Source of the DNA: a virus
IMG/VR virus record: IMGVR_UViG_3300009009_000024
Location: 1 to 39,730 of that record
Length of the DNA: 39,730 nucleotides
Reading direction: 5' to 3' (one strand)
The position numbers and the translations under genes are program-made. The notes under the pieces were generated by a model. The model was not told the DNA's origin and searched no databases. It saw only the letters and a list, made by a program, of their open reading frames with translations. Shown in pieces: positions 19,686 through 37,782 of this stretch (the stretch's first letter is position 1; every line of letters starts with the position of its first letter).

Positions 19686-21137
19686 ATGGCAGGTCAAGCG
19701 ATGACAGCAGTAGGTACTCAAATAACCACAATAAATGGATATGCAAATTCAGCATTGTCGGCGGCGCAAAGTGCTTTAAGCGCGCTCGCCGCCATTGACT
19801 TGCCGACCTCTTATGCAAGCTCTTATTCCATAGGCGGAGATGCGGTGTTCGTGCCCACCTCTCCATCGCAGCCATCGGCAATGGCGATAACCACAGCTCC
19901 TGACATTGTTTCAATAGCTGTTCCAACAAAGATAACCAAGCCCGATATCGCATCAGTATCACTTGGGAGCCTACTCGCTATCTCGCTTCCGAGTGTACCG
20001 ACCGTGAGTTTCCCGGCACTCAACGTTGAGGCTCCTGTCTATTCTTTGACCGCACCGAGTGAATGGGCTTTCGGAGTCAATAGCAACATACTCATTTCAG
20101 ACGACCCCATGATTCAGGCTGCAATTAATAGGCTTTCGGATAATATCGCAAACGGCGGAACGGGTCTCTCCGCAGATGTCGAAGCAGCTATCTGGGCGAG
20201 AGGGCTTGAGCGTGAAGGGCAACAGCTTGAGGATTCGAGCGATAACATCTTGTCTATGTGGGCGAAAAAAGGATTCAGTCTGCCGGACGGAATGCTCGCT
20301 CATTCCCTGTCGGAAATTCAGAAAGAATACATGAATAAAAAGATAGACCGTTCAAGAGAAATTGAAATAAAACAGGCCGAACTTGAACAGGCTAATCTCT
20401 TTAAGTCACTTGAACTCTCCATCGGGCTTGCAAAAGAACTCATTGGGCTCCTGATAAGTTACGAAGAATTGGTGTTCAAGGGGCAGGAGGCCACGGCCAG
20501 ATTTGCCAATGAATACATAGACCTTCAAATAAAAACATACATGTCGATGGTTGAGGCTTACAAGGCTACAGCTCAGGTTCAGGAAATGCTGATTCGTTCC
20601 GAGATAGCCAAAGTAGAGCTTTATAAGGCACAGCTCGATGGGCAAAGGCTTATCGGCGAAATAAACCAACAGACTGTTAAGATATATTCGGAACAGCTTC
20701 AGGCGACTACGATTCTGATAGAAAGATACAAAACAGAGGTTCAGGCGATGGTGTCTGAGCTTGAGGTCGAAAAGGCGAAGATCGAAGCGAACAAGATTCA
20801 GATGGACGCATGGGCGAAGAAGGCTGATGTTGAGATTGCAAGATACAACGGAGCTATTGAGCTTTATAAAGCGACTTCGATGTTTAACGTAGCGACAGCA
20901 GAACTCCAGAGCAAAGGCGTAGAAGCTAATATGAGAACAACGATAGCCGCTGTTGAGGCCACTGTCAGGAGCTATCAAGTTCAGGAAACAAGTATGGTGG
21001 CAAAGGCTCAGATCGTTATGGAAGCTGCAAGGGGAGTTGCGATTGCCGCAGGGTCAATGGCCGCTGGAGCAATGGCCGCCGCCTCTGCTCATTCGAGCAT
21101 GTCTTATGATGAGAAAATGGAATTAACCGAACCATAA
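19686..21137 (+). CDS. Coiled-coil internal virion or tail protein
   Basis: An AGGAGGT site precedes this 483-residue protein. Residues 1-140 are Ala/Ser/Pro-rich and repetitive (SALSAAQSALSALAAI, and later SVPTVSFPALNVEAPVYSL). Residues about 180-440 are long charged helices (KKIDRSREIEIKQAELEQA; VSELEVEKAKIEANKIQMDA), typical of phage coiled-coil proteins. The C-terminus is a small-residue helix (GVAIAAGSMAAGAMAAASAH) that could insert in membrane. I associate this architecture with tail or ejection proteins of short-tailed phages. It precedes other ejection-type genes. Confidence 0.5.
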   Translation: MAGQAMTAVGTQITTINGYANSALSAAQSALSALAAIDLPTSYASSYSIGGDAVFVPTSPSQPSAMAITTAPDIVSIAVPTKITKPDIASVSLGSLLAISLPSVPTVSFPALNVEAPVYSLTAPSEWAFGVNSNILISDDPMIQAAINRLSDNIANGGTGLSADVEAAIWARGLEREGQQLEDSSDNILSMWAKKGFSLPDGMLAHSLSEIQKEYMNKKIDRSREIEIKQAELEQANLFKSLELSIGLAKELIGLLISYEELVFKGQEATARFANEYIDLQIKTYMSMVEAYKATAQVQEMLIRSEIAKVELYKAQLDGQRLIGEINQQTVKIYSEQLQATTILIERYKTEVQAMVSELEVEKAKIEANKIQMDAWAKKADVEIARYNGAIELYKATSMFNVATAELQSKGVEANMRTTIAAVEATVRSYQVQETSMVAKAQIVMEAARGVAIAAGSMAAGAMAAASAHSSMSYDEKMELTEP

Positions 21138-21152
21138 AAAGGGAGGAGTATT

Positions 21153-22316
21153 ATGGCTGGAAAAGATAGCGAAGACGTGGGAACCTTGAAGGAGAACATC
21201 CGCAAAACCATTCAGGAGATAAGGGGATTAAACCAAGCTCCGAAGCCAACCCAGAGCGGACTGGGCATAGTCAAGGATATCGCCACGGGTGGAGCGAAGA
21301 TGCTTGCCGGAGGGCTGGGCGCAATCCCTACCGCTGTGGGGAAGGGAATAGAACAGACCCCTACGCTTATAGGCAAAGGTATCGGAGCAGTTCCGGTGAA
21401 GCCTCCCGACTTGGCCAGCAATCCAAGTGCGAAGTTAGCCGGAGAAGGATACGACCAGTTCGCCAAAGGCATCGGCGGTGTCGCAAAAGCCGCAAGGAGC
21501 GGCATAATGTCTGCGTTAGACTTAAAGGAAGCACCCAAGCCCGTGACTCAGCCAGCACGTGCGGCTACTCCTACCGCATCTTCCTTGGTCAACCAGCCCG
21601 TAGTTCCAACGGCACAGAATTCTGCGGCGAACAAGCAGGTAATAATGGATGAAACCAAAGCCACGAGAGTTCCTCCTACTGGAGACCTCGATAAGAGGCT
21701 CGGCATTGGCGCAAACGAGAGCGCCGGGTATATAGAAAATGCGACAACCGGAGGAAGAATCAATGTGCCTAAGAGTACTGGAGAAACAAGCAGGCCAGAA
21801 TCAGACTCTTTTGCCGATACATTACGTGAAGTTTCAACTGCCTTTGGAGATGATAGAACTGGATTCAAAAAGACCGTTCTGGATAAGGCCACTGATATTT
21901 ATAACGCACGGTTAGGGCTTGAAGGACACAAGATAAGCGCAACCGTGTCTGCAAAAGACAGAGCGGATGCCATGAAAGAACGCAACGAGTTGCTCAGGCA
22001 GCAGATTGAGGAGAGAAGGATAGCAGGGGAAGATACCAGAGAGCTCAGGAAGCAAATGGCTGAAGACACCATATTCCAGAAAGACCTTACAAAGTTTGGG
22101 ACTGATGCCATGGGCGAGTTTAATCCTGAAAAAGGCTTGTTCGAAATGGCCGATCAAGGTATACATACAAATAGGCCAGAAGTAGACAGGGCGTACTCAG
22201 CGTATAGATCAATGAAGGAAAAGGTTGAAAAAGAACATAAAGCAAAAATGACCCCGGCGCAGGCGCAGGCTTTCAAGAGAAATTATTTTAAAGCAAAAGG
22301 CTGGATGGCTGAGTAG
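21153..22316 (+). CDS. Putative internal/ejection virion protein
   Basis: GGGAGGAG precedes the ATG of this 387-residue protein. Residues 40-115 are Gly/Ala-rich with hydrophobic stretches (GGAKMLAGGLGAIPTAVGKG, GIGGVAKAARSGIMSALDL) like membrane-active segments. Residues 115-180 are Pro/Ala/Thr-rich and probably disordered. Residues 215-350 are charged helices (RADAMKERNELLRQQIEERR). It ends with a helical segment (AQAQAFKRNYFKAKGWMAE). It lies eight bases before the first polyvalent protein gene, so co-packaging is plausible. No family is recognised. Confidence 0.45.
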   Translation: MAGKDSEDVGTLKENIRKTIQEIRGLNQAPKPTQSGLGIVKDIATGGAKMLAGGLGAIPTAVGKGIEQTPTLIGKGIGAVPVKPPDLASNPSAKLAGEGYDQFAKGIGGVAKAARSGIMSALDLKEAPKPVTQPARAATPTASSLVNQPVVPTAQNSAANKQVIMDETKATRVPPTGDLDKRLGIGANESAGYIENATTGGRINVPKSTGETSRPESDSFADTLREVSTAFGDDRTGFKKTVLDKATDIYNARLGLEGHKISATVSAKDRADAMKERNELLRQQIEERRIAGEDTRELRKQMAEDTIFQKDLTKFGTDAMGEFNPEKGLFEMADQGIHTNRPEVDRAYSAYRSMKEKVEKEHKAKMTPAQAQAFKRNYFKAKGWMAE

Positions 22317-22324
22317 GAGAGAGC

Positions 22325-25225
22325 ATGGAAAATGTTATACCAGACGATGCGTTGAATCCTTGGGGGAAAGAGAGCCAAGGCATACCTGAATCGGCGCTTA
22401 ATCCGTGGGCTGAACCAGAACCCGATACTATCCTTGGCGAAATTCCCAAAGGCTTAAAGGCGGGCGTCCAGCAGCTAAAGGGTATGGGATATGGTATTGG
22501 CGCTCTTGCGTCTCAGGCGGTTGGCTCTGAAGCCGGAGTTGACTGGGCGAGGGAAGGCTTGAAAGAGGTTGAAGCCGCTACCCCGAAACCAGCCGTAGCC
22601 TCTTATTCTGATGTTACCGACCTTACCAGTGCGGCCAAGTATCTTGCTTATGGAGTGGCCTCTAACGTACCCAATATGGCTTTATCTATCGGCGGCGGTG
22701 GCGTCGGGGCTCTCATTGGTGGAAGAGTTGTTTCAGGCGCTGTAAAATCTGCTCTCACAAAAGAGTTGGCTAAAAAGATACTTGCCAAAGGAGTGGCTCG
22801 CGGCGCAATGGCTGGTGCCGCTGGAGCATCTATTGGCATGGAGGCTGGCTCTATAGCAGGCGATCAGCTAACGGAGACCGGAGAGGTTGACCCGCTCCGA
22901 GCTGTCGCCGGGGCGATTCCCGCTGGTCTTCTTGATGTTATCCCTGAATGGTATCTGGCTAAGAAACTCGGTCTATTCGGCGGAGAAGGACGCAAGGCAG
23001 GGGAGAAGTTAATCAAATTCCTCGGCAGAACGGCGGCCACTCAGTTCGCGATGGAAGCCCCAACGGAAGCCATGCAGTCTGTAATCGAAAGGGCATCAGT
23101 TCCCGGTAAGGCAATAACCAACCAAGAAGCATGGGATGAGTATATCAACGCGTTCATACTTGGCGGAGCAACCGGTGCTGTGATGGGCGGCGGTGCGGGC
23201 ATCTTTGCCAAAAAGCAAACGGCTGTCCAGAAAGTGATCGAGCGCGACCCTCTTGCGAATGACCTTGAAACACAATTATCCGAAGCCGACCCAGATGGCC
23301 TCACAAGCGTTCCTGCGGAGGTTTGGGATACAAGTCGTGTCCCGGTGAGGCAGGCGAGCCCGGAACCTCCTGCGCCAGCTCCTGTGCTTCCCGCGTCAGA
23401 AACTAACGTAGCGGGTGCGACCCTTACCCCGGAAGAAGTCGCCGTTCGTGACATGCAGCGAGGGAACGTAGCCGCAGAAGAGGCCAAGGTTAAGCAGACC
23501 GCTGCCCAGAGTGTCCTTCAAGAGACAGCCAAGGCAGCAGAAACCCAGAAAGGATTCGCCTCAGAAGCCGAAGCCCTCATGTCTATCCAAGCCAGAAGAC
23601 TCGACCCTAAAGACTTTAATGTTCAGAAGGCCGGGAACAGATGGACTGTAACCCCTAAGTCGATTTATGAGGGGCTGGAAGAAACAGAAGAGACTGCAAC
23701 TCCGTTGCGTACCGAGGAAGCCAAACCCGCGGTTGAAGAAGCCAAGGCTCCTGCGGAAGTTGCATTGCGTAAAGACGGATACGAACCAGCAAGCAGAATC
23801 ATGGCCGCTGAGCTCGAAGCTGGAGATAAGGTAAAAATCAACAATGAGGTCTTTGAAAGCAAGGGGATTGTAAACGGCAAGTCTGTACTTAAGGATGGTG
23901 TAACGTTAAGAGTCGCTCCGGATTCGGACTTAGACATTGAAGCCATTAAAAGAGGCGAGCCAGTTCTCCCTCCTACCGAGGCAGAACGCCAGATTATCCA
24001 AGAAACAGCAGAAGCCCAAGGGGGACGGCTCGAAGGGGGATGGTCTCCGGACATGGGTTTCACCGTGACCGAGGTAAGAGACGGGACAAAGAGGTCTTAT
24101 CAGGTGAGAACGCCCGAAGAAATAGCTCCGAGATTCGCCGAAGCCAGAAGGCAGCCACCCGCCCTTACAACCACAGCATCTGCCGTGCAGACTGCGTCAG
24201 ATGCCCCCAAACCAACGATCTCCCCTGAAGGCATACAGGGACAAGGCTCAAAAACAACAAAGAAGGCTCAAATAACAGGTAAAGCCATACCGAAGAAGAA
24301 TCAGACACGGATTCCGGGGTTTGTGAAAGGAGCGCAAGGCAAGGCGACCAAAGAAGACGTACAGGCGGTAGCCGACAATCTAATGAGCGGACTCAAGAAC
24401 GTGTCACGAGCCTTGGTTCATACCAATGTAAAAGACGTCAACATGCCGATAGACGCTCTTGATGCCATGAACAGGGCGAATGGTATTGATGAGAACGGCA
24501 ATTCAGATGTCGCCGGGATGGTATGGGATGGACAGATATATCTTTTCTCTGACAACATCTCCAGCGAATTAGATGTAATCCGCACCTTCGTTAAACACGA
24601 GATGTTCCACAAAGGATTCCAGACTCTCTTTAGAAATCTGGCGGGCAAGAATGGCACATTCATTCCTTACCTTACTCAGGTGAATACTCTCTTGGATAAT
24701 ATATGGACTCAGCGAGAAGCTGGCGTCCGGGAGAATACAGCCAAGAACCAAGACCAACTTGAGATAGATTCTAAAGATGGAGTCACAAGGACAAAGGCAA
24801 GAAGGAAAGCTGCGGAAGAATGGCTGGCGAATCAGGCTCCTGAATCAGAACCAAAACTCTTCGACCGGCTCGTATCTATTGTAAGGAACTTCCTGAGGCA
24901 GATCGGATTCGATGTCAAGCTATCTGACGAAGAGGTCAGGACTATAATAGCAGACTCCTATGCGGCTCTGCGGGGAGAAGTACCTTCTGGAATAAAGAAC
25001 GCTGACCCTGTCTTTGCTTTCAATAGTAAGAGTCCGTTAGGGAAAATAAGCGGTCACGCAAGGAGCCTTGGAGCAAGGGTTCTCGCCGGGACAGAGAAGA
25101 AAAGTCCAAAGGTAGGTAAATTAAAAACTCAAATCGCTGCTCACTTTGCAGAAAGACGCGCAAAGGGCGGAGTGATAGATTATCTGAAGAATGAACCTAA
25201 AGAAAATCGACGGGTAGAGAAATAA
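22325..25225 (+). CDS. Large polyvalent protein (LPP), N-terminal half with HExxH metallopeptidase motif
   Basis: This 966-residue half starts after AGGAG. The first 30 residues hold a tandem motif (IPDDALNPW, IPESALNPW). Residues about 35-290 are Gly/Ala-rich helices (NMALSIGGGGVGALIGGRVV; AMAGAAGASIGMEAGSIAGD), as in membrane-active ejection proteins. Residues 300-690 are charged linkers. Residues about 700-930 form a zincin-like module (DGQIYLFSDNI, then H758-E-M-F-H762 and EEWLANQ at 831-837). Such modules are known in phage polyvalent proteins. It ends at TAA 25223-25225, in frame with the next gene, suggesting one interrupted gene. Virion ejection is inferred. Confidence 0.65.
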   Translation: MENVIPDDALNPWGKESQGIPESALNPWAEPEPDTILGEIPKGLKAGVQQLKGMGYGIGALASQAVGSEAGVDWAREGLKEVEAATPKPAVASYSDVTDLTSAAKYLAYGVASNVPNMALSIGGGGVGALIGGRVVSGAVKSALTKELAKKILAKGVARGAMAGAAGASIGMEAGSIAGDQLTETGEVDPLRAVAGAIPAGLLDVIPEWYLAKKLGLFGGEGRKAGEKLIKFLGRTAATQFAMEAPTEAMQSVIERASVPGKAITNQEAWDEYINAFILGGATGAVMGGGAGIFAKKQTAVQKVIERDPLANDLETQLSEADPDGLTSVPAEVWDTSRVPVRQASPEPPAPAPVLPASETNVAGATLTPEEVAVRDMQRGNVAAEEAKVKQTAAQSVLQETAKAAETQKGFASEAEALMSIQARRLDPKDFNVQKAGNRWTVTPKSIYEGLEETEETATPLRTEEAKPAVEEAKAPAEVALRKDGYEPASRIMAAELEAGDKVKINNEVFESKGIVNGKSVLKDGVTLRVAPDSDLDIEAIKRGEPVLPPTEAERQIIQETAEAQGGRLEGGWSPDMGFTVTEVRDGTKRSYQVRTPEEIAPRFAEARRQPPALTTTASAVQTASDAPKPTISPEGIQGQGSKTTKKAQITGKAIPKKNQTRIPGFVKGAQGKATKEDVQAVADNLMSGLKNVSRALVHTNVKDVNMPIDALDAMNRANGIDENGNSDVAGMVWDGQIYLFSDNISSELDVIRTFVKHEMFHKGFQTLFRNLAGKNGTFIPYLTQVNTLLDNIWTQREAGVRENTAKNQDQLEIDSKDGVTRTKARRKAAEEWLANQAPESEPKLFDRLVSIVRNFLRQIGFDVKLSDEEVRTIIADSYAALRGEVPSGIKNADPVFAFNSKSPLGKISGHARSLGARVLAGTEKKSPKVGKLKTQIAAHFAERRAKGGVIDYLKNEPKENRRVEK
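25223..25225 (+). other. In-frame TAA between the two halves of the polyvalent protein
   Basis: The upstream frame (from 22325) and downstream frame (to 30595) are identical. They are interrupted only by this TAA, and the codons that follow at once read LREFFDVCMVKHPEALEWY, which continues a helical domain without break. There is no ribosome binding site before GTG 25244 or ATG 25250, unlike nearly all other genes in this operon. TAA ends many other genes here, so it is not generally reassigned. Confidence 0.75.
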
Positions 25226-25243
25226 TTACGCGAGTTCTTTGAT

Positions 25244-28200
25244 GTGTGCATGGTAAAGCATCCCGAAGCGCTGGAATGGTACCGCAAAGAAATTAAAGAA
25301 ACTTTTGACATCTTAACTCAGCTTGCGCCGGAGCTTGTCAATAAAGAGAATAGGTTCGTAATGAATCTGGCTCTTGCCATAGCTTCAAACGGAGAAAAGA
25401 ATATCCCCAATGTTAAGAGTGCCTATGAAATTTATCAAAGTTTTCAGGTAAATCGTACGTTTCTATCTAAGGTAGGGGCAAGGCGTGGAGAGTTAATAGA
25501 GAAAGGATTGAAGAGGGCAGATGCGTTTAGTCGGGAATTCAACACTTTAGGCGAATTTGAAACTTGGTTGCTCGAAAAAGTCCCAAGGCATATCCTTGTT
25601 GATGAGGTTGCAGCTCTTCTGGGTATAACAAGAAAAGAAGCGCTCTGGGTCGGTGACGAAGAAGACATGGCAACTATTCTCCCAAGGTCAGTCATCTTTG
25701 GCCCCAAGGTAGGAGGAGCCTTCTTCCCGAATCTGAGCGGAGATTTCGACACTATTACTATGGATATGTGGTTTATGCGTACCATTGGACGCATTACCGG
25801 AGACCTCATAGAGGGCGGTACGCCAGAAGAGGTAGAAGCCCAAAGAGAGAGACTCTGGAAAGCAATAAAAGCCTCACCAGAAGGAATGAAGATAGTCAGA
25901 AAAGATTGGGCGGAAAAGTTACGGGGCGAGAAAGGGATGACAAAGGGCGGAGAGCGTCTTTTTGCAAATGAGTTTGAAGGCGCAAAGATAGACGTGATAG
26001 CCAATATAATAGCAAAGTTGTCAGGAGATAAATCTTTCCGGGATAAAATAGGCGCGGTTGAGGGCGGTGAGAAATTACGGACAGCGGCTAATAATAGAAA
26101 CGAGTATATTTTGGGGCCACTCCCAAAAGACGCCCCGAAGGGAGAGGGGAAAAGAGCATGGCTTAGAGAAAGAATAAACAACGTCAGAAAGGGGCTGGCC
26201 AAAGATGGCAAGAACTACGATAACGCCGATATACAAGCAGTAATGTGGATAGGTGAGAAGGAGCTATGGAAAAAATATGGACTCAGACAAACTCAAGGGG
26301 ACTACTACTCGGACGGAGCGAACGCCCTCTATGAAGGGATACATGGTGGAGCATCTGGACTCTTTACAGGCGGAGCAAGACGAGTGGGAGAAGAAAGCGG
26401 AGGCGGGATGGAACAAGGGGCTCTCTTTTCTCGCCGAAAAGCAGAAACTGAGGGAACAAAAACAGAGCGAGACACCGCTACCATTACCTTAGGGGCAGCC
26501 CCTGATGTATCGAACGGGGAAAGCATGATTAGCAAGATATACGCGCTGGCCAAAGCAAACCCCGCAGGTTTCACTATAGATGTTTCTACCGGAAAGATTG
26601 TCACAAAAGGGTATGCGGTAGCCCCTTCCAAAAGGACAGCAACCCCCTATGACAACCTGTCGGAGCAAGACGTTGACGATTACCTTGAAAAATTTAAACA
26701 GGTCTTTGACTCTGACAAAAGGGCTTTCTTCGGGGGATGGCAATGCGATGACGAAAAATCCCCTGACTTTGGAAAATTTGTTCTTGATGTGTCTTTTGTT
26801 GTTGACAACCGAGAAGATGCTATCTATATTGCAGACATAGGAGAACAAGATGGAATCTACCACATTGATGGGCCAGACCCGAAAACAAACTACTTCAGAA
26901 CCGATGAAGCCGTCGCAGACCTCAAAAAACGGAGTCTTTTTGATGAGAGGCGAAGGGCAGAGCTGGGAGGACTTCAAAAAAGCCTGCATAGAGTCATGCA
27001 GGGCGGCAGGCCTATTGTCGGGGAAGAAGTCAAACGAGAAGCCCCCGAACGAAGGCCAGCAGCCGAGCGAGTGGGACTTAATGATGCACAAAAGGAACGA
27101 AGACGGCCTGCGGGAGCTTTTTTCAAAACGGCAGGAGTCCACTTCAGCACCGAAAAAAGAGACGCCCTCTCCAGTAGCTTCTACGGACGAGGGCTAAAAG
27201 GGGCAGAGGCTGATCGTCTCGAAGGCCAAGAAGACCTGCTCCATAGAATCTACTTTTATCCAGACAACGAGAGGCTCAAGAAAGAACCATCTCTCGGCAA
27301 CGTCGCACATAAAATCCCGCCAGACTATTACCTTTACGATGCAACGGCTGATCCGGAAGGATTAGCAAAGAACTCACCCGATGCCAACGCCTTTGAAAGA
27401 GCGGTTATTTCTAACGGATATGATGGATATGTGAACACCGATAGGAACACGGGCGTTCTCCTCGGCAAAAGGGATATCCCGATAGACCATGCCGATAAAA
27501 CTACCGAAGAGCCGAGCTTTTCCCGTGAAAGCCGCCAAGATAAAGAAAAACTCATCAACGATTTCTTTAACTACGCCAAACCTAAATTTTTCATTGACGG
27601 CGACACTGAATCAATCAAGATAAATATCAAGGGGACTTCCCAGCATCAAGAAGGAAAAGGAGGATGGGGAGAAGAGGGTCGGGTGCAGGGAAAGTCAACG
27701 ATGAGGATACTCCGGAAGGATGTAGAAGCCTACAAGCCTAAGCTGGATAGCACAGCATCTGTGTCCGGATTCAGAGGGCCAACAGCCGCTATTAATGGAT
27801 TAGTGGAAATGGCTAAGCGCTGGTTTAAATATGCGGATAAGAATAATATTCTCAAACGTCTTCCATCCCAACCAAAAAACAAAACAACCGAAGAGCCTTC
27901 GTTCTCCCGCGCATCCGAGTACGTGGACAATGGAAGGCAGTACATAGAAGCGGCACGTAATGTATGGAGTTCCCCGAAAGAAAGCTACAAGTATCCCGGA
28001 GCCATCAAGCGGTCATTTGAGTATGTCTTCGGCTCACCGGAACACAGCAGCCATCCAGTTATAAAGGCTCTGTCCAGAGTATTCGAGGAGCGCAACGGAT
28101 GGTTCAACGAATACTTCCTCCGATTCGCTGAAGGAGACCATCCCGGCAGACAACACGACACAATGGCTGAAGCGCTGGACAGTCTCAACGATGACCATTA

Positions 28201-30595
28201 CGATTCCTTCGAGCAGGTAGATAACGACATGGACGTCAGTGGATATACTCAGGACGAAGCCCGCGAATACATGAAAAAGAACAAGGTTGCTCCTGAGGTG
28301 GTGGAAGCGTGGGAAGCTAAAACCGCCAGATTCAACACTGTCATGGACACGATTATCGAAAACGTCCAAGAGCAGATAGATGAGATAGACGAGTCGGCCT
28401 CCATGAGAGGGAGCGAGCCCAGCTATCCGAGGATAGCCTACGAAACAAACGAGCAGGGAGAGCCGGACTTCAACAGTCCGATAGACCTCAAGGATTATCT
28501 CGATGTCCTGAAAGAGATGAAGAACTATGCCTACTCACCGAGAATAAGGGAGCCCGGTAAATATGTAGTCAGGGCGGAGATACCCGCTTCCGGAAGAAAA
28601 TTCATGCAGTTCGCTAAGAGCCAGATAGCTGCCGAAAAACTCAAGCTGGATAAGATAGCCGAGGGCTGGGAGAATGTTGAAGTCGCCCAGTCGAGAACGC
28701 TCCCAGAATCGGTTCAGGCCGGGCTCAAAGAGATAGACGTCCTTAAACTTGTCGGAGAAGCTCTTAACAAAACAAACGACGCAGCAGCTTCAGAGGCTTT
28801 TGGAGCACAGCTCACAAGCGCTATCCATAACATAATTCTCTCCAGAGGATACAGACGGCATCAGATAGGCAGGCAGTCACAACTTGTCGAGGGGTACGAG
28901 ACCGACCCAAGGAAGAAGGTCTTCACTTATCTCACCAACTCCGCGGCAGGCATCGCAAAGGCTAAGGCCGCTAAGCAGGCAATGCAGATTATGACCGGAG
29001 GCACCAGCGAAGAGACCGCGGAAGGAGCCCTTACCGTTAAAACCCTCGGCGAATATCATAGAACTCCTATCAATCCAGCAATGGAAGGAAGAACATACGA
29101 AGCGGCAAAGAAATATATTGCTGATAACCTGCGGAATATTGAGGACGCTGACCGGGCAGTTGCCTTTGTTAAAAAGCTCGCCACGTTTAAATACCTGTCT
29201 TGGACACTCCGGGCACCCCTTGTTAATGTTACCGCCCTTATGACTACGGTAGCTCCTTCTATCCAGCAATACGCCGGACAGGGGAAGGCCGGGATGCTAA
29301 ACGTTATGAAGGAAATAGGCAAGGCATCCACCCAGTATGTCAGGGTCATGCGCGGAGAGAGAGGGACGCTGACATCGGCAGAACAATCGTTTATGGATGA
29401 AGTCAACAGACGCCAGTACGACGACCCCCAGATGGTAAGGGACATGATGACATCCATGCAGGGTTCTTCCGGCAGGACTTTCGACAACATAGTCCAGTGG
29501 GGCATGAAGCCCTTCAGCTATGTCGAGCAGTGGATGAGAGGTCTCACCATGCTTGCGGGGTACAGGATAGCAAAGCAGGGAGGTATGTCCGAGCTTGATG
29601 CAAGGGAAGCGGCGATACAGTCCGCCAGCAACGCTCACGGTGTCTACGGGAAAGCTACGAGACAGTACTGGGCTCAGGGCACCGACCCTGCCGCAAGGAT
29701 AGGCCAGATCGCATCCACCTTCTTAAAGTTCCCCCAGAACTATCTGAACCTCCTGTATGATTTGGGATATACCAAGGGGAATATAAAGGCTTTCACGTGG
29801 GCTCTTGCCGCTCCGATTGTTCTCGGCGGAATGGCCTCAATCCCGTTTAAGGACAATATCGTATGGATGATAAACGCCTTACTGAAAGGACTTGGCGACG
29901 ACAGGGACATCGAGAAGATGGTATTTGATGACATCAGATTCTACCTTGGGCCGGAGGCCGAAAAGAATGCGCGAACCGGATTAATGGGATGGGCCGGAAT
30001 AGACATTACTGGTTCCTTGGCGATGAACATCGGACTCCCCACTGACCTTTTGAGCTTAACTGGTATTTTTGGAGCCATGGCGAAAGAAACATACAGAGCC
30101 GGACACTTCGTAACCACCCAACAGTACAGCAAGGCGCTTGAGACCGTACTCCCCTCCCTTCCCGCTAACGCGTTTAGGGCTTTCCGTGAGATGGACGGAG
30201 CCACAACCATGTCAGGCAAAAGAGTTTGGAATGAAGACGGAACTCCATATATCCCAACCTCCGGGGAGACTGCGCTACGCGTCGCAGGGTTCAGGGGCTC
30301 AAAAAGGACAACTACTCAACAGAGAGACTGGGAAACCAATAGAGAGAAACAGAGATGGGACGAATCCAAGGGGAAGATATACGAGAGATACAGAGCCTTC
30401 CTTGCCGAGAGAAACCCAAGTCAGGATAGATTCAGGTCTATCATGGAAGATGTCTCTAAATACAATAAGGCTATTGTCGCCAGAGGCAGGGTCGGAATGG
30501 TTGTTCCGATAAAACCTGCACAGCTTAAAAGGATTACCAGAGACATGCTCCGGGAATCCAAGGTAGAGCTGAGGATGAAAAAAGTGGGGAGTTAA
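25244..30595 (+). CDS. Large polyvalent protein (LPP), C-terminal half, multi-domain
   Basis: This 1783-residue open frame may start at GTG 25244 or ATG 25250; neither has a ribosome binding site. Modules I recognise from phage polyvalent proteins are: an N-terminal helical domain with FGPKVGGAFFPNLSG (about 1-230); a module with NPAGFTIDVSTGKIVTKGYA (about 425-560); a STEKRDALSSSFYGRGLKGA module (about 630-750); and a long C-terminal domain (about 1290-1720) with PLVNVTALMTTVAPS, ARIGQIASTFLKFPQNYLN and hydrophobic ALAAPIVLGGMASIPF. Short FSR motifs sit between modules. Such proteins are thought to be injected with the DNA. Module limits are by eye. Confidence 0.65.
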   Translation: MCMVKHPEALEWYRKEIKETFDILTQLAPELVNKENRFVMNLALAIASNGEKNIPNVKSAYEIYQSFQVNRTFLSKVGARRGELIEKGLKRADAFSREFNTLGEFETWLLEKVPRHILVDEVAALLGITRKEALWVGDEEDMATILPRSVIFGPKVGGAFFPNLSGDFDTITMDMWFMRTIGRITGDLIEGGTPEEVEAQRERLWKAIKASPEGMKIVRKDWAEKLRGEKGMTKGGERLFANEFEGAKIDVIANIIAKLSGDKSFRDKIGAVEGGEKLRTAANNRNEYILGPLPKDAPKGEGKRAWLRERINNVRKGLAKDGKNYDNADIQAVMWIGEKELWKKYGLRQTQGDYYSDGANALYEGIHGGASGLFTGGARRVGEESGGGMEQGALFSRRKAETEGTKTERDTATITLGAAPDVSNGESMISKIYALAKANPAGFTIDVSTGKIVTKGYAVAPSKRTATPYDNLSEQDVDDYLEKFKQVFDSDKRAFFGGWQCDDEKSPDFGKFVLDVSFVVDNREDAIYIADIGEQDGIYHIDGPDPKTNYFRTDEAVADLKKRSLFDERRRAELGGLQKSLHRVMQGGRPIVGEEVKREAPERRPAAERVGLNDAQKERRRPAGAFFKTAGVHFSTEKRDALSSSFYGRGLKGAEADRLEGQEDLLHRIYFYPDNERLKKEPSLGNVAHKIPPDYYLYDATADPEGLAKNSPDANAFERAVISNGYDGYVNTDRNTGVLLGKRDIPIDHADKTTEEPSFSRESRQDKEKLINDFFNYAKPKFFIDGDTESIKINIKGTSQHQEGKGGWGEEGRVQGKSTMRILRKDVEAYKPKLDSTASVSGFRGPTAAINGLVEMAKRWFKYADKNNILKRLPSQPKNKTTEEPSFSRASEYVDNGRQYIEAARNVWSSPKESYKYPGAIKRSFEYVFGSPEHSSHPVIKALSRVFEERNGWFNEYFLRFAEGDHPGRQHDTMAEALDSLNDDHYDSFEQVDNDMDVSGYTQDEAREYMKKNKVAPEVVEAWEAKTARFNTVMDTIIENVQEQIDEIDESASMRGSEPSYPRIAYETNEQGEPDFNSPIDLKDYLDVLKEMKNYAYSPRIREPGKYVVRAEIPASGRKFMQFAKSQIAAEKLKLDKIAEGWENVEVAQSRTLPESVQAGLKEIDVLKLVGEALNKTNDAAASEAFGAQLTSAIHNIILSRGYRRHQIGRQSQLVEGYETDPRKKVFTYLTNSAAGIAKAKAAKQAMQIMTGGTSEETAEGALTVKTLGEYHRTPINPAMEGRTYEAAKKYIADNLRNIEDADRAVAFVKKLATFKYLSWTLRAPLVNVTALMTTVAPSIQQYAGQGKAGMLNVMKEIGKASTQYVRVMRGERGTLTSAEQSFMDEVNRRQYDDPQMVRDMMTSMQGSSGRTFDNIVQWGMKPFSYVEQWMRGLTMLAGYRIAKQGGMSELDAREAAIQSASNAHGVYGKATRQYWAQGTDPAARIGQIASTFLKFPQNYLNLLYDLGYTKGNIKAFTWALAAPIVLGGMASIPFKDNIVWMINALLKGLGDDRDIEKMVFDDIRFYLGPEAEKNARTGLMGWAGIDITGSLAMNIGLPTDLLSLTGIFGAMAKETYRAGHFVTTQQYSKALETVLPSLPANAFRAFREMDGATTMSGKRVWNEDGTPYIPTSGETALRVAGFRGSKRTTTQQRDWETNREKQRWDESKGKIYERYRAFLAERNPSQDRFRSIMEDVSKYNKAIVARGRVGMVVPIKPAQLKRITRDMLRESKVELRMKKVGS

Positions 30596-30600
30596 AGGGC

Positions 30601-30981
30601 TCAGGCGGTGAGCTCTATCGTAAAGTGATGGATGTGCACGACTGACTGCAAAGACAACACCGGCGAACTCACATTCAGTTCGCAGCCAGAAGAACCGACT
30701 GTCGCCAGCAGAAGCGCTCCGTCGCCGAATTCAATCAGAGCGCTTTTAGCGGTAGCACTTTTTTTCGCGGTAAGCTCTATTCCGTTTTTCAGTGATATTG
30801 TGCCGTCGATTATTTTTATGTCAAAGAATGCGGTATCGGTGATAACATTTCTACAATAGACCCTATCTATATCTACATCTCTGACGGCCACATCCAGAAA
30901 TTCGATGCTCCAGCCTTTCTTTGGGATATCCTCTGGGTTGCCTAAACAGAGATACTCTTTTGCTTTTTTATTCAGCCTCAT
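30601..30981 (-). CDS. Unknown 126-residue protein ending the minus-strand operon
   Basis: It starts MRLNKKAKEYLCLGNPEDIP in an ATGA overlap with the radical SAM gene upstream, so it is the last gene of the minus-strand operon. The body alternates strands (WSIEFLDVAVRDVDIDRVYC; TISLKNGIELTA; GALLLATVGSSGCELNV), suggesting a small all-beta protein. Its stop lies five bases from the end of the convergent virion operon. There is no recognisable motif. Coupling to the radical SAM gene suggests a partner or substrate role, which is speculative. Confidence 0.45.
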   Translation of the reverse strand: MRLNKKAKEYLCLGNPEDIPKKGWSIEFLDVAVRDVDIDRVYCRNVITDTAFFDIKIIDGTISLKNGIELTAKKSATAKSALIEFGDGALLLATVGSSGCELNVSSPVLSLQSVVHIHHFTIELTA

Positions 30982-32216
30982 ATTACACCCCCGTAAAGCC
31001 GTCCGTCGCCGAGCTTTCTCATTGCCCGATGGATAAACTTATGGATACCATCATAGGTGAGTTCGTCTATCTCAGGCATACACTGTGTCTCCACAGCCAG
31101 CGCGAAGACCTTCTGGAGAACATAGGCCTGCATCTTATATTCCTCGGAGAAATTCAGCACCGACCTCTCAAAGAAGTTGTCGCCCATATCTGAATAATCC
31201 CCTGTATACCAGCCCTTCTCTTTGCACTCATCTCCAAGCGCTGTACCGGGATAAGGGGCGAAGATGGACGACCACGCGTAGTCGGGCTTGCATTGGATAT
31301 TCACCTCAAGGGTCTGGAGGTCGTCTTCGATGGTCGAGGTCGGTAGCGCCAACATATTTTGTATCATCAGCTTGATTCCAGCCTTACGCAACAGCGTTGC
31401 GCTTCTTATAGTTTCCTCATTTGAGGTCTGCTCCCGGCCTATGACTTTACGAAGTTGATCGCTCGCTGTTTCGAGGGCTATCCGGGTGGACAGGCAGTTG
31501 GCCTCCTTAAGTAGAGATACGCGTTCTGGAGTCACCTGAGAGGGTCTGAGGTGGCAATGGAAGGGTATTCCTATCCTGTCCTTGTATTGTTCCGAGAACT
31601 CTTTTAACCAACCCAGAGATACTCCGAAACATGAGTCCTGAAAATACACAAACTCTGGACGGACAGAATCGATCTCAGCTATCACGTCATCAACAGACCG
31701 GAACCTAACTTTGGGTAAATCGGGATACATTTTTATCCATTTGTCGTTAAAACAGTAGCGACACCGGTACGGACATCCGCGCGATGTGATAAAGTCCCTT
31801 ATCTTCATATCAGGGAAGTCGTCTCTTACCGGCCAAGGAATAGAATCCAAATTTGGGTAGCTTGTCTCTGACCCAAGGAAGTCAGCAAGCCAGTTTTCTG
31901 CCTCTCCCGGAATAATTAAATCAAATTCTGAGATTAGAAAGTCTCTGGGAAAGAACGTCGCATGAGGCCCACCTACGATAATCTTGCTATCCGGCAATAT
32001 CATCCTCAGCCTTCTGGCAAGATGGATAAACGACTGTTGATTGCCCGTAAGTACAGATAGACCGACTATGTCTGGTCGCCATGCGTTCGCCACGATACAA
32101 GCGTTCTCTATGGCTACGATGCGTGTCTCTGCCCCAGCCTCTCTCGCCACAGCCGACAGGTACATAGGGCCTAACGTCTCAATTGCCTTGGATTTAACAA
32201 CAAACAGTATCTTCAT
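30978..32216 (-). CDS. Radical SAM protein with B12-binding-like domain (A)
   Basis: This 412-residue protein has an N-terminal B12-binding-like Rossmann domain (about 1-115; LPDSKIIVGGPHATFFPRDF and LIIPGEAENWLADF), but no clear DxHxxG motif. The radical SAM domain follows, with C148-xxx-C152-xx-C155 in SRGCPYRCRYCFN for the 4Fe-4S cluster, and TRIALETASDQLRKVIGR typical of this superfamily. Members do methylations, ring formation and other radical chemistry. Neighbours suggest a carbohydrate or lipid-linked substrate, or a peptide. It overlaps both flanking genes by ATGA. Substrate is unknown. Confidence 0.75.
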   Translation of the reverse strand: MKILFVVKSKAIETLGPMYLSAVAREAGAETRIVAIENACIVANAWRPDIVGLSVLTGNQQSFIHLARRLRMILPDSKIIVGGPHATFFPRDFLISEFDLIIPGEAENWLADFLGSETSYPNLDSIPWPVRDDFPDMKIRDFITSRGCPYRCRYCFNDKWIKMYPDLPKVRFRSVDDVIAEIDSVRPEFVYFQDSCFGVSLGWLKEFSEQYKDRIGIPFHCHLRPSQVTPERVSLLKEANCLSTRIALETASDQLRKVIGREQTSNEETIRSATLLRKAGIKLMIQNMLALPTSTIEDDLQTLEVNIQCKPDYAWSSIFAPYPGTALGDECKEKGWYTGDYSDMGDNFFERSVLNFSEEYKMQAYVLQKVFALAVETQCMPEIDELTYDGIHKFIHRAMRKLGDGRLYGGVI

Positions 32217-32596
32217 ATTTTCTCCGGAAGTCCTTCGTCAAGGGTGTTTGTTTCCCAGTACATTATAGGGAAGGTGTACCTGCCATCGGCCAGCTTCGCT
32301 CCGCTTATGTACGCATAAGGAACCGGCTCTCCATTTCGGGTGACTGAGACATACAGTCCAGCCGCTGAAGGCATCTGTTCTTCCGAGATGGAGTTGATAT
32401 CGATGCCGAGCAAGCTCATCTGCATGTCAATCGACTCCTTGTTTTTCGCGACATCAACCCCCAGCTTAACGAGCACCTTGGTTATCCGGTCTTCCAGAAT
32501 CTGCACCGCCTTCCGGGATGGCTTGATATGGAGCGACTCCTTTAGTAACTGCCGATACATCAGCTCGTCCTCACTCACTTCGTTTCTTTTCTTCAT
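32213..32596 (-). CDS. Unknown 127-residue protein
   Basis: The ATG at 32596 is preferred over one at 32644 because it overlaps the stop of the methyltransferase gene (ATGA) and GAGG lies upstream. The N-terminal half is helical and charged (RKAVQILEDRITKVLVKLGV). The C-terminal half is beta-like (GLYVSVTRNGEPVPYAYISG, then YTFPIMYWET). No motif is recognised. It is enclosed between a sugar methyltransferase and a radical SAM gene, both by ATGA overlaps, so it is almost certainly translated with them. Confidence 0.45.
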   Translation of the reverse strand: MKKRNEVSEDELMYRQLLKESLHIKPSRKAVQILEDRITKVLVKLGVDVAKNKESIDMQMSLLGIDINSISEEQMPSAAGLYVSVTRNGEPVPYAYISGAKLADGRYTFPIMYWETNTLDEGLPEKI

Positions 32597-33810
32597 CCTC
32601 GCACCTCCAGCTCCGGGACTGCGGTGACGAACTTCGCCCCCCATTCCCTAGCGTATGATAGTTGTTCCATAATTTCTTCTTTGAGATTCCACGGCAATAT
32701 CAGAATAAACTCCGGCTTAAGGAATTTAATCCTATCTTCGCTTGTCACCCTTATATGGCTCCCCGGAAGGTACTTCCCTATCTTATACGGAGACCTGTCC
32801 ACAACCAGTGGTAGAAGATCGGACTTGATACCACAAGTATTAAGCAGCGTAACTCCCTTTGCGGCGGCTCCGTATCCGAAGACAGCTTTGCCGAATGATT
32901 TCTGGCGAATGAGGAAAGCCACGAGGTCGGTCTTAATCTTGCCCACCTTATATTGGAATCCAGAATAATGGTTCATGGACGTAATCCCATCGAGTATCTC
33001 CCCTCCGAGCAGCGTGGCCACCTTGGTGCTCTCAGCATGCACCCTCTTTTGATGTTGGGCATATATCCTCAGGCTACCCCCGTGCTCCGGTATCTCATCG
33101 ACATCAAAGATGCACAGCCCGTTGTTATTGAATATGGTACATATCGCCATGAAGGAGAAATAGTTGTAGTGCTCGGAATAGATCGTGTCGAACTGGCACT
33201 GGCTAATGAGATTCTGGAGATGAGGAAATTCAAACACGGCAACTCCGTCTGGGTTCAGGGCTATCCTAACACCCTCTACGAAGTCGTTGATATCCGGCTG
33301 ATGAGCGATAACATTGATGCCGCAGATGAGGTCAACACTCCCAATGAGATATTGCGTGTTGTCTGTGCAAAAGAAATCTGCCACAGTGTCTATGCCCTTG
33401 CTTCTGGCCACCTCTGCCGCCTCTCTTGCAGGGTCATATCCCAAAACATCACACCCTATCCCCTTGAACCATTGAAGCAGATACCCGTCATTGCTCCCTA
33501 TTTCAAGCACCTTGCTTTCAGACCCAAGGCCGAACCTCTCACACATAATATCAGCAAACTCTTTTGCATGGCTGACGTTCGATGGACTCTGCGAGCTGAA
33601 ATAGACGTAGTCGTCCTTGAATATCTCCGAAGCCTTCTTGCTCTCCGGTATCTGCACGAGAAAGCATTTGTCGCACACGAACACCTTTAACGGATAAGTC
33701 ATCTCCGGCTCGTTGAGCTGCTCTTCGGTCAGAAACGAATTGCTTGGCGGTTGATGCCCAAGGTCAATAAATTCATGTGTCAACGGTTCGTTACAGGCTC
33801 TGCAATTCAT
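32593..33810 (-). CDS. Sugar C-methyltransferase, TylC3/TcaB9 family
   Basis: This 405-residue SAM enzyme has the three-part family layout. Zinc cysteines C3, C6, C46 and C49 lie in the N-terminal part. A Rossmann SAM domain has VLEIGSNDGYLLQWF at 101-115. A C-terminal domain has KAVFGYGAAAKGVTLLN near 310. H170 and Y211-S-E213-H214 keep the same spacing as the catalytic His, Tyr, Glu and His I recall for TcaB9. The family adds a methyl group to C3 of 4-keto-6-deoxy nucleotide sugars. The rfbG gene upstream would supply such a substrate, so a branched CDP-hexose is expected. Confidence 0.8.
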   Translation of the reverse strand: MNCRACNEPLTHEFIDLGHQPPSNSFLTEEQLNEPEMTYPLKVFVCDKCFLVQIPESKKASEIFKDDYVYFSSQSPSNVSHAKEFADIMCERFGLGSESKVLEIGSNDGYLLQWFKGIGCDVLGYDPAREAAEVARSKGIDTVADFFCTDNTQYLIGSVDLICGINVIAHQPDINDFVEGVRIALNPDGVAVFEFPHLQNLISQCQFDTIYSEHYNYFSFMAICTIFNNNGLCIFDVDEIPEHGGSLRIYAQHQKRVHAESTKVATLLGGEILDGITSMNHYSGFQYKVGKIKTDLVAFLIRQKSFGKAVFGYGAAAKGVTLLNTCGIKSDLLPLVVDRSPYKIGKYLPGSHIRVTSEDRIKFLKPEFILILPWNLKEEIMEQLSYAREWGAKFVTAVPELEVRG

Positions 33811-34838
33811 GTGTTTTCACCTCCGCAATAATCTTCAATATCTTCTGTAGTTAGAATCTTGCCGGTTTCATAATATTCCTTGTACCACCGGATGCTTCTT
33901 GCAACTGCATACTTCATGCTCCAGCGAGGCTCCCACCCCAAAAGCTTTCGACTTTCGGTTGAGTCTATCTTGAGCAGATAGACCATCCCCGGATGCGTAG
34001 GGGTGTTATCGATCTCCCAGTTAATTACAGGCCATACTTCTTTTGCTGTTTGAAGGACTTCAAGAACCGTCATTTCTCCTTGTGGCCCAAAATTGAAAGG
34101 TTTCGCAAATCGCTGATTCCCCTGTAATAACTTTTCTCCAAGTAATAAATATCCCATTAACGGCTCAAGGACAAATTGCCAAGGCCGGGTCGATGTTGGC
34201 GTGTGTATTTTTACGGGTATTCCCATTCTTGTTGCTCTGACAATATCCGGTATTAAACGCTTCTCCCCCCAATCTGCTCCGCCAAGGACATTCCCGGCTC
34301 TCGCTACCGCAATCATTGGGAAATAATGTTCCTTATAACATTCTACTACTTGTTCCACACAAACCTTACTTGCTCCATACGGAGTAGAATCTCCCATAGC
34401 GTCATTTTCCCGATAAGCCCAGTTCCATTCCCTGCTCTTATATATTTTGTCACTTGTTATGATAACAATAGCCTTTACGGTTTCAGACAATCTACAGGCA
34501 TCGAGAAGATTTACAGTTGCCATTATATTATTTTCAAATGTTTCTCTTGGTTCCTCAAATGTTTTGGCAACAATAGCGGAAGCCGCAAGATGGAATACAA
34601 TATCAGGTCTAATTTTGTCTAAATTTAACTGTTCTTTTAAATCGAATCTAACATCAGAAATGTTTTTTCCCAATTCAAGAATGTTGAAATGGCTTGGGTC
34701 GGTGGGCGGATTCCTTGCTATGCTTGTGACATTAGCCCCAAGTTTCATTAACCACAAACAAAGCCACGAACCCTTGAACCCAGTTCCGCCAGTTACAAGA
34801 ACATTTTTACCTTTGTATGTTTCATATAAGTTGCTCAT
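33807..34838 (-). CDS. rfbG: CDP-glucose 4,6-dehydratase
   Basis: ATG 34838 is chosen because AAGGAG lies just ahead of it; 34883 would add 15 residues. The 343-residue short-chain dehydrogenase has NVLVTGGTGFKGSW (12-25) as the NAD(P) site, and T128-SDK with Y154-xxx-K158 as the catalytic residues. It closely follows RfbG (for example LMKLGANVTSIARNPPTDPS). It converts CDP-glucose to CDP-4-keto-6-deoxyglucose in the cytoplasm. The DNA looks more AT-rich than the methyltransferase gene next to it. It overlaps the preceding homing endonuclease gene by 17 bases. Confidence 0.85.
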   Translation of the reverse strand: MSNLYETYKGKNVLVTGGTGFKGSWLCLWLMKLGANVTSIARNPPTDPSHFNILELGKNISDVRFDLKEQLNLDKIRPDIVFHLAASAIVAKTFEEPRETFENNIMATVNLLDACRLSETVKAIVIITSDKIYKSREWNWAYRENDAMGDSTPYGASKVCVEQVVECYKEHYFPMIAVARAGNVLGGADWGEKRLIPDIVRATRMGIPVKIHTPTSTRPWQFVLEPLMGYLLLGEKLLQGNQRFAKPFNFGPQGEMTVLEVLQTAKEVWPVINWEIDNTPTHPGMVYLLKIDSTESRKLLGWEPRWSMKYAVARSIRWYKEYYETGKILTTEDIEDYCGGENT

Positions 34839-35439
34839 ACTCGCTCCTTTTTTCTGGAAAATTAAGGATGGCATCCTCGCCACGATATTTTATGATTGCA
34901 CAATCGTAAGCAAAAACAGCATCAAGCAGATTATTAAATGAACCGCAATATATATGTTCCCCATGGTATAAAAACTGTGCCATCCATTTTCTGGATTTTT
35001 TGTGCCAAAACACGCCCCTATACCCGGAAGAGTTGTCTCTGTGCATTCTGCAATTATATCCATTTATTGATGGAGCCGCTATTCTTAGGTTTACTTTTCG
35101 ATTGTCTAAACAATTCCTGTTTATATGATCGACTATAATTCCGTCCTTGGGCTTGCACCCCATAATTTCGCGGTGCATATTTACGGTAATGTTGCTATGG
35201 TTCCTGCCTTCCGTCCCGTTTCTCCCATTAGGATAGGCTGTCCGACTCGCGTAGCAATTCCATGCATCGTGTCTCGCTCCCCATTTCCACTGCATAAGCC
35301 ATTCGTAATCTTCATCGTCTACTATGGCTATCTTCCCTTGGGTAAGGGGTATTCCCCGGACGCTTCCGTTCTCTATCCCAGCAAGCACTATGGCATCGTG
35401 GGCATACATTGACTTTAGGCTTTCGAGCAAACCAGACAT
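34822..35439 (-). CDS. HNH homing endonuclease with AP2 domain (copy 1)
   Basis: GGAGGTG lies ahead of the ATG of this 205-residue protein. It has three parts: an N-terminal conserved segment (IPLTQGKIAIVDDEDYEWLM), an HNH nuclease (MHREIMG, VDHINRNCLDNRKVNLR), and a C-terminal AP2 DNA-binding domain (SGYRGVFWHKKSRKWMAQF, then AIIKYRGEDAILNFPE). These are free-standing homing endonucleases, common in phages. It sits between rfbF and rfbG, and its 3' end contains the ribosome binding site and start of rfbG. It has a longer N-terminus than copy 2. Confidence 0.8.
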   Translation of the reverse strand: MSGLLESLKSMYAHDAIVLAGIENGSVRGIPLTQGKIAIVDDEDYEWLMQWKWGARHDAWNCYASRTAYPNGRNGTEGRNHSNITVNMHREIMGCKPKDGIIVDHINRNCLDNRKVNLRIAAPSINGYNCRMHRDNSSGYRGVFWHKKSRKWMAQFLYHGEHIYCGSFNNLLDAVFAYDCAIIKYRGEDAILNFPEKRSEYEQLI

Positions 35440-35521
35440 GGTTACACCTCCGACATTTGAGTTCTATTAATTTAAGCTCCATATCTGTTCCTTACCATAA
35501 TATAATTATTAAAGTCAAGTG

Positions 35522-36292
35522 TCATTTCCAAATTTTCCATTTAGGTTTCCCCTCATCCCACATATTCTGCAACACGCCCATATCATAAAGGTTATCCATA
35601 TATCCAAAAAAGCCTTTATGCTGATACACCATGAGCTCTTTATCCTGTGTTAAATCATGGAAACAATCCGTCTCAAGGTCACAGCTTTCGTCTTCAGAAA
35701 GATAATCAAAGATGCCCCTGTTGAACACCATAAACCCGCCGTTCATGAGGCACTCCCCTTGAGGCTTCTCGGTGAAAACCTGAACCAAACCATCCACATG
35801 ATGTATCTCTCCGAATCTTGGCGAGGGATGAACCCCGGTGATGGTCGCTATCTTCCCATGACTCTTGTGGAAGGCCAGCAGATCGGTGAGGTTGACGTCC
35901 GAGAGGCCGTCGCCGTAGCTGCACATGAAGGTATCCCCATTGATGTAGTTCTCGATCCTCTTAAGCCGCGCTCCCTTCAGAGTGTTCAGCCCGGTATCGG
36001 AAAGGGTCACAGACCAGTCATAGTCGGATGGTTTCCTGTAAACTTGGATAGATTGGCCAATCCTAAAGGTCACATCGCAATTTATTTCATCGAACACCGA
36101 GAAGTATTTCTTAAACTCCTCCTGCTTATATCCAAGCGCCAACACAAAGTCGGTGAAGCCATAATGGGCGTATATCTTCATGATATGGAATATCATTGGC
36201 TTCCCGCCTATCTGCACCATGGGCTTAGGCAAGAATTCGGTCTGCTCTCTTAGTCTTGTTCCACTTCCACCGCAAAGCACTACTGTCTGCAT
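35522..36292 (-). CDS. rfbF: Glucose-1-phosphate cytidylyltransferase
   Basis: This 256-residue nucleotidyltransferase begins MQTVVLCGGSGTRLREQTEF and continues LPKPMVQIGGKPMIFHIMKI, the signature of RfbF. Later segments also fit: DTFMCSYGDGLSDVNLTDL and ECLMNGGFMVFNRGIFDYL. It forms CDP-glucose from CTP and glucose 1-phosphate, the substrate of RfbG. AAGGAG sits upstream of its ATG, two bases after the preceding stop. Length matches the family. A homing endonuclease gene separates it from rfbG. Confidence 0.9.
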   Translation of the reverse strand: MQTVVLCGGSGTRLREQTEFLPKPMVQIGGKPMIFHIMKIYAHYGFTDFVLALGYKQEEFKKYFSVFDEINCDVTFRIGQSIQVYRKPSDYDWSVTLSDTGLNTLKGARLKRIENYINGDTFMCSYGDGLSDVNLTDLLAFHKSHGKIATITGVHPSPRFGEIHHVDGLVQVFTEKPQGECLMNGGFMVFNRGIFDYLSEDESCDLETDCFHDLTQDKELMVYQHKGFFGYMDNLYDMGVLQNMWDEGKPKWKIWK

Positions 36293-36294
36293 CG

Positions 36295-36858
36295 TTATCT
36301 CCTTAAAGTTGCTCTTCCCCGTCTCATCGCATCGGGCTGCCTGATTCTTGTCTCCAGTCTGGCTCTGAGTTTATCGCTCAACTCATAGTGAGAACATACC
36401 CTGTAGGCTGTTAGCTCAAGCCCCATCAAACTGCTATGATCGTTTTCGGGATTTACCAAAAATATAAATCTGTAGCTGCCCACCGCTATGTAGCCCCTAC
36501 TTGCGTCTATAGCAGCCTCCGGGTGCCTTTCCTTAATGAACATCATCTTATCCCTCAAGCACTCTTGCCTACAGCAAATCCCCAGATAGTTTTTTGTTGG
36601 TTCCGGCATATCTCGTACCTCCCCGAATCTTTGAAAGCGAAGACTTCGGGATGCCCGCCTCAGCATCTCCAATGAGGTATCTCCAGCCGCCTGTGGCGAT
36701 ATTCCTCCATAATGAGCTGCATCCCCGGAATGGCCTAAAATATTAGGCGGTACAGCAAAGCTATTTTCATATTCCCGTCTGAATCGCTCAGCATCAGTCG
36801 CAATCTCTCGCCGAGCCGCAAGTTCTTCTGGGGATATCGTTCCAAAGGTAGTAGGCAT
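36295..36858 (-). CDS. Unknown 187-residue protein
   Basis: The protein starts MPTTFGTISPEELAARREIA and has a helical N-terminal region. A middle part has clustered cysteines (GICCRQECLRDKMMF, C95-C96 region), then a small alpha/beta section (YIAVGSYRFIFLVNP). It ends basic (MRRGRATLRR). The cysteines could bind metal, but no known motif is matched. Its start overlaps the stop of the O-methyltransferase by one base, so the two genes are coupled. The function is unknown. Confidence 0.45.
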   Translation of the reverse strand: MPTTFGTISPEELAARREIATDAERFRREYENSFAVPPNILGHSGDAAHYGGISPQAAGDTSLEMLRRASRSLRFQRFGEVRDMPEPTKNYLGICCRQECLRDKMMFIKERHPEAAIDASRGYIAVGSYRFIFLVNPENDHSSLMGLELTAYRVCSHYELSDKLRARLETRIRQPDAMRRGRATLRR

Positions 36859-37589
36859 TATTTTACCCTCCTAAGCCAACCCCCCGGCGCGCTCGTTATC
36901 AGGGCGCGTTGTTCTATATCTTTATCCACAACAAACTCGTCGTTGTCTTTCATAAATTCCTGAACCGCCGTCCAAGGATTGTTCCCTTTACCCCAAGGCC
37001 GGTCTTGGTTCTTATCAAGATGGCCATAAAACTGAATCGCTGTATCGAAGACCACTAAATATGACCCTACCGACACAAGCGGTGAATAGAGTTTTAGCTC
37101 TTGCAATACGTGGTCATGGGTGTGGTTTGAATCAAGGGATACAAGAACCGGAGCCCACTTACCGATGATATCAAACACGTCTTCGGCAACATATGGGTCT
37201 ACGCTTGAGCCCTCTAAGGTCTCGCAGCGAGGAAGCCCTTGGAGTAATGCTTTGGCGTGGCTCCTTATATCTATATCAAGGGCGAGAACCTTCCCGGCGG
37301 CGACACCTGCGGAAAAAAGCATGTCTGAATAAAAACTTGTCATCCCTCCGAAAGCGACTCCTATCTCGACAATCCGCTTCGGCCTTATCTGCCAAATCAG
37401 TTCTTGCATCACCATTAGGTCTGTTGGATATTGAAGTATCGGTATCCCCATATAGGTGAAGTTCTTCACATAGTTTGTTCTGACAAGGGACTCCGTGAGC
37501 CTGTGGACGTCTATCTCCAAGTCCCTGTCGGTTAGATTCTGTCTGACCTGCCCATCTCTTTCGTTAAAGTACTTTTCTGCTGGGTTCAC
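36858..37589 (-). CDS. CmcI-type (rhamnosyl) O-methyltransferase
   Basis: This 243-residue protein fits the cephalosporin hydroxylase/rhamnosyl O-methyltransferase family (CmcI). It has YMGIPILQYPTDLMVMQELI, then IRPKRIVEIGVAFGGMTSF as the SAM site, VLALDIDIR, VLVSLDSNHTHDHVLQELK, and a typical end LITSAPGGWLRRVK. Many relatives methylate sugar hydroxyls. Placement near rfbF, rfbG and a sugar C-methyltransferase suggests it methylates the finished deoxysugar or glycan. The target hydroxyl is not predictable. Confidence 0.75.
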   Translation of the reverse strand: MNPAEKYFNERDGQVRQNLTDRDLEIDVHRLTESLVRTNYVKNFTYMGIPILQYPTDLMVMQELIWQIRPKRIVEIGVAFGGMTSFYSDMLFSAGVAAGKVLALDIDIRSHAKALLQGLPRCETLEGSSVDPYVAEDVFDIIGKWAPVLVSLDSNHTHDHVLQELKLYSPLVSVGSYLVVFDTAIQFYGHLDKNQDRPWGKGNNPWTAVQEFMKDNDEFVVDKDIEQRALITSAPGGWLRRVK

Positions 37590-37602
37590 GCTTGCTCCTT
37601 GA

Positions 37603-37782
37603 TTAAGATTTTTGCTGACATTTCGGCATAGTCATTAACTCTTTTTCCGACAACGGGATAACTTGCAGATAAAATCCCATAGCTGATGCTATCTTCCGTA
37701 GTGCACCAACATGCCCTCCGCATATGAGGGCTTCGTCTTGCCCCGGCCACGTGAATCTGTATTCTGCTAATTTGTCACACAT
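37603..37782 (-). CDS. Small 59-residue protein coupled to radical SAM gene
   Basis: The frame starts MCDKLAEYRFTWPGQDEALI and continues CGGHVGALRKIASAMGFYLQ before ending MPKCQQKS. It has a good GAGGAG site eight bases upstream. It overlaps the end of the radical SAM gene by 16 bases, which supports translation. Four cysteines (C2, C21, C54 and one to check) are few for a metal site. A partner of the radical SAM enzyme or a peptide substrate is possible but unsupported. Confidence 0.5.
   Translation of the reverse strand: MCDKLAEYRFTWPGQDEALICGGHVGALRKIASAMGFYLQVIPLSEKELMTMPKCQQKS

Follow-up and report, generated by a model that had tools for sequence, protein, structure and literature searches.

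The window analyzed here is the 39,730-base virus record IMGVR_UViG_3300009009_000024 from IMG/VR. On its + strand, the list of open reading frames (ORFs) and their translations revealed one frame of 2757 codons (22325–30595) with a single TAA as its sole internal stop (Table 1). This agrees with the original prediction, which had two ORFs in one frame parted by one TAA and a protein of about 2760 residues if the stop were absent. The codons from the TAA to the GTG that opens the second ORF (25244–30595, 1783 aa counted from that GTG) are also open. The two candidate restart codons, GTG 25244 and ATG 25250, lie 18 and 24 nt downstream of the stop.

Table 1. Features of the giant gene and its upstream neighbors (feature, position, strand, remarks)
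Two genes upstream of the giant gene (483 and 387 aa)	19686..22316	+	first homologous to a gene of H66, 8P and ctwe8250
N-terminal part of the giant gene	22325..25225	+	966 aa; ATG start with Shine-Dalgarno site; ends at the TAA
HExxH peptidase-like domain (HEMFH at 24596–24610)	24230..24979	+	common to giant proteins of Methanosarcina virus MetMV and several podovirus contigs
Helical polyvalent-protein domain cut by the stop	25094..26332	+	WY, GPKxG, TMDxW and QAxxW motifs; hmmsearch 277.5 bits
In-frame TAA followed by T (UAAU)	25223..25225	+	model residue 63, inside predicted helix 54–74
C-terminal part, same frame as the N-terminal part	25226..30595	+	1789 sense codons
First possible restart codons past the stop (GTG 25244, ATG 25250)	25244..25252	+	no Shine-Dalgarno site
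PLxRFG/tail-700 region	28556..30484	+	NF032893, 126.6 bits (cut-off 100); also phrog_11358

The match to the NCBIfam profile NF032893 spans profile positions 10–646 of 681 and lies above the curated cut-off, which places the C-terminal region in the PLxRFG/tail-700 family. One frame thus carries a peptidase-like domain, a helical domain and the PLxRFG region, with the stop falling between, and no second enzymatic domain was identified. The hmmsearch alignment of the helical domain covers residues 924–1336 of the joined sequence. The domain has no Pfam match in the window, and it was found in giant proteins of phages DC33, ctQRb9 and ctEw122 and in many IMG/VR contigs. A polyvalent protein joins, within a single polypeptide, several domains that differ widely in activity; such proteins are packaged and injected along with the DNA, and metallopeptidase domains are among their known components (Iyer et al., 2017; PMC5512222).

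The gene neighborhood points to the same family. In H66, 8P and ctwe8250, the second gene ahead of the giant one is a homologue of the 483-aa gene (19686–21137); ctwe8250 also agrees with the window in gene order and sizes, having a 386-aa gene between this homologue and the giant gene. Pseudomonas phage H66 gp60 (PLxRFG domain-containing, 3787 aa), whose annotation states that mass spectrometry confirmed its presence in the virion, and other F116-like giants resemble the window in the C-terminal PLxRFG/tail-700 region and in gene neighborhood. Unlike the window, they are encoded by one continuous gene, and the domain at the stop point was not detected in them by BLAST. Judged by its sequence, the product of the frame is a single giant polyvalent virion protein of the PLxRFG type, from an F116/H66-like phage: the PLxRFG match, the H66-like neighborhood and the peptidase-like domain all support it. 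This agrees with the giant polyvalent protein proposed originally. By analogy with the family, the protein probably enters the host by ejection together with the DNA.

Other genes of the window were also annotated. An adjacent pair at 6100–8373 has tail-fiber and collagen-like matches; the start of its second gene immediately follows the TAA of the first and is preceded by a good Shine-Dalgarno site. Amid the structural genes, 11900–14872 encodes a 990-aa protein that matches a glycosyltransferase, and a minus-strand block (30601–39729) has matches to a nucleotide-sugar epimerase and a methyltransferase, along with weak ones to radical SAM proteins. From these matches, the 990-aa protein and the minus-strand block perhaps serve surface-sugar modification.

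The N-terminal and middle regions of the frame resemble other giant proteins. The DC33, ctQRb9 and ctEw122 giants carry the interrupted domain (23–31% identity) at a comparable position along the protein, but their genes are continuous (2792–3209 aa) and no similarity to the N-terminal 870 residues of the window protein was detected. A 3002-aa protein of Methanosarcina virus MetMV has a similar HExxH peptidase-like region (29% identity); it too is encoded by one continuous gene, and the stop-point domain was not detected in it. Both regions occur, in the same order and at nearly equal spacing, in a 4248-aa ORF of record IMGVR_UViG_3300010885_038579 (L059), which differs from the window in being fused through the stop point and is 26% identical to it. 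Window residues 731–1325 align to this ORF as a single block, and the distance from HExxH to the WY motif is 231 residues in L059 vs. 227 in the window. The alignment is direct evidence that the sequences corresponding to the two flanks of the stop belong to one predicted polypeptide in this relative. Separately, a segment of ~120 residues (27134–27490, 35–41% identical) follows the interrupted domain in DC33-like proteins and precedes it in loci L003–L014; from its placement in these sequences, it reads as a module that shifts position from one giant protein to another.

A profile was built from 42 diverse homologues, leaving the window out, and scored with and without the residues ahead of the stop. 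The joined sequence scored 283.3 bits vs. 270.3 bits for the post-stop part alone, a gain of 13 bits. When the 79 pre-stop residues were shuffled, the joined score was reached in 0 of 1000 trials, and it was never reached when they were swapped for 220 other segments of the same protein. Shuffling the 14 post-stop residues gave a weaker result in the same direction (joined score reached in 20 of 1000). The N-terminal part alone gave no significant match to the profile (E 0.16), because only ~43 domain residues precede the stop. In the nearest relatives the alignment crosses the stop without a gap, as in L027 (IDYKKSTPEQNRLFEDLIYEEVLYAQELHPEAAGWY) vs. the window (IDYLKNEPKENRRVEK(stop)LREFFDVCMVKHPEALEWY).

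No homologue is divided at this place: an ORF began at the stop point in 0 of 112 loci in one homologue set and 0 of 76 in another, with some contigs counted twice and all homologues distant. Same-frame neighboring ORFs at some homologous loci looked mostly like ordinary adjacent genes that start near the stop. The ORF limits closest to the stop point were contig edges, ~80 residues before the WY motif, and ORFs not cut by an edge had at least 158 residues ahead of that motif. The case with 158 residues, L242:7530–9170, carries the WY domain as a stand-alone 547-aa ORF rather than within a giant protein; the natural domain border should therefore lie upstream of the window stop. Taken on these alignments, the stop interrupts the predicted domain and does not mark its border. 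The proposal that the post-stop codons continue a domain found whole in polyvalent proteins is upheld by the profile scores, and homologues separately encoded here with a ribosome binding site, which would have spoken against it, did not appear. Its suggestion that GAA had changed to TAA fared less well, since the stop column is hydrophobic (V, L, M, I, A or F) in 36 of the 42 homologues.

Alignment scans recovered distant kin only, with up to about 33% identity, with search tools that may omit records closely similar to the window. No relatives emerged when viral contigs were scanned with the pre-stop region, the C-terminal region or the 483-aa gene singly, or when genomes were scanned with the joined region by itself; a degenerate DNA pattern just past the stop gave no matches.

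The region was modeled with AlphaFold2 (residues 905–1365, 42 aligned sequences, the stop read as glutamine for modeling only). The model (pLDDT 89, pTM 0.85) places the stop at residue 63, within a predicted 21-residue helix. Strong Foldseek matches were to uncultured phage proteins only, several of them annotated as large polyvalent proteins. No solved structure was found by sequence, and Foldseek against the PDB returned nothing significant. In this model, a restart at GTG 25244 or ATG 25250 (model residues 70 and 72) would take away most of the helix.

This loss bears on whether the gene is functionally split, the second protein being made by termination-reinitiation at either codon and both parts associating in the virion. 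Two start codons so close to the stop and a wholly open C-terminal part would suit such a split. However, pairing with the 3′ end of 16S rRNA is only −2.5 kcal/mol at each of them, a value that 69% of positions drawn at random inside the late genes also attain, vs. −11.3 to −13.4 kcal/mol at the + strand genes starting at 16083, 16562, 17048, 19686 and 21153; at the start of the giant gene (22325) it is −7.3 kcal/mol. The claim that the second part lacks a ribosome binding site is thus confirmed. A few other genes of the window, such as those at 18139 (−2.2 kcal/mol) and 11274 (−1.0 kcal/mol), have weak sites as well, and the missing site is therefore not decisive by itself. Nor is a nearby start evidence for a split, because 30% of codon positions in the giant gene have a start codon within nine codons. 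In native E. coli gene pairs a 14-nt gap reduced reinitiation by 40–80% and a gap of ~20 nt almost abolished coupling (PMC10666635), which argues against restart across 18–24 nt. With the loss of the helix and undivided homologues as well, we consider a functional split unlikely.

Readthrough, with few ribosomes crossing the UAA to yield a minor full-length form beside an abundant N-terminal form, would fit a frame that runs on without a gap in mid-domain. Against it stands the UAAU context: UAA followed by U is reported to be the most efficient termination signal in bacteria (PMC5289835). Neither a leaky context nor a stimulatory RNA structure was found: the downstream RNA is not stably folded (fold z-score −0.08), and Rfam gave no matches. 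The window encodes no tRNA, and the stop was kept in none of the homologues in the two sets, all of them distant. We regard readthrough as improbable. Slightly more doubtful still is a version in which an unusual phage- or host-encoded suppressor lets one frame give two forms, an abundant peptidase-bearing N-terminal protein and a rare full-length protein made across UAAU. Reassignment of TAA to an amino acid across the whole genome of the phage or its host, for which the open frame alone speaks, was rejected on stop usage: TAA terminates 20 of the 36 genes in the window (TGA 12, TAG 4), leaving this reading a negligible chance.

We consider it likely that the TAA is a recent private nonsense mutation, or a consensus or assembly error, in an ancestrally continuous gene, and not a conserved or programmed stop. 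This reading is favored because there is one lesion, an intact remainder and no relative with the stop. The ancestral gene would have encoded one continuous polyvalent virion protein of ~2760 residues, and a single base change would have placed an ordinary strong TAA in the helix leading into a middle domain. The change would be either a nonsense mutation private to the lineage or to part of the population, or an error of consensus or assembly; among the homologues compared, those closest in the domain are about a third identical. If the stop is real, translation should yield for the most part the 966-aa N-terminal product, which carries the HExxH peptidase, and the part bearing the PLxRFG region would be scarce. 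We infer the recency of the change and its effect on the protein products. Two points count against a private change or error: the start codon 18 nt downstream makes a second product conceivable, and the 1789 open codons after the stop also fit a translated second gene. Of the options raised originally, a sense-to-stop change or a sequence error is thus preferred, and readthrough and a real split are disfavored.

Internal stops were also sought in other records, with the scan restricted to true giant ORFs, a scan of all long ORFs being swamped by wrong-frame ORFs of GC-rich phages. Record IMGVR_UViG_3300009185_000071 has a lone in-frame TAA (11324–11326) at an unrelated place in another giant polyvalent gene; its kin, 76–78% identical, have a leucine sense codon at that position and the frame runs on. 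Private stops therefore occur sporadically in such records. In a structural gene of another record (IMGVR_UViG_2913042868_000008, position 13465), an in-frame TAG stands where 17 related ORFs have tyrosine, a private nonsense codon.

These data suggest that (i) the cause of the stop is most likely mundane; and (ii) when a giant phage gene contains a single in-frame stop, its homologues should be compared before the case is called readthrough or gene fission. Should reads confirm the stop and the full-length protein be present in virions, the crossing of a strong UAAU signal would be highly unexpected. Read literally, the record leads to a two-gene annotation that masks a giant polyvalent virion protein and splits one of its domains.
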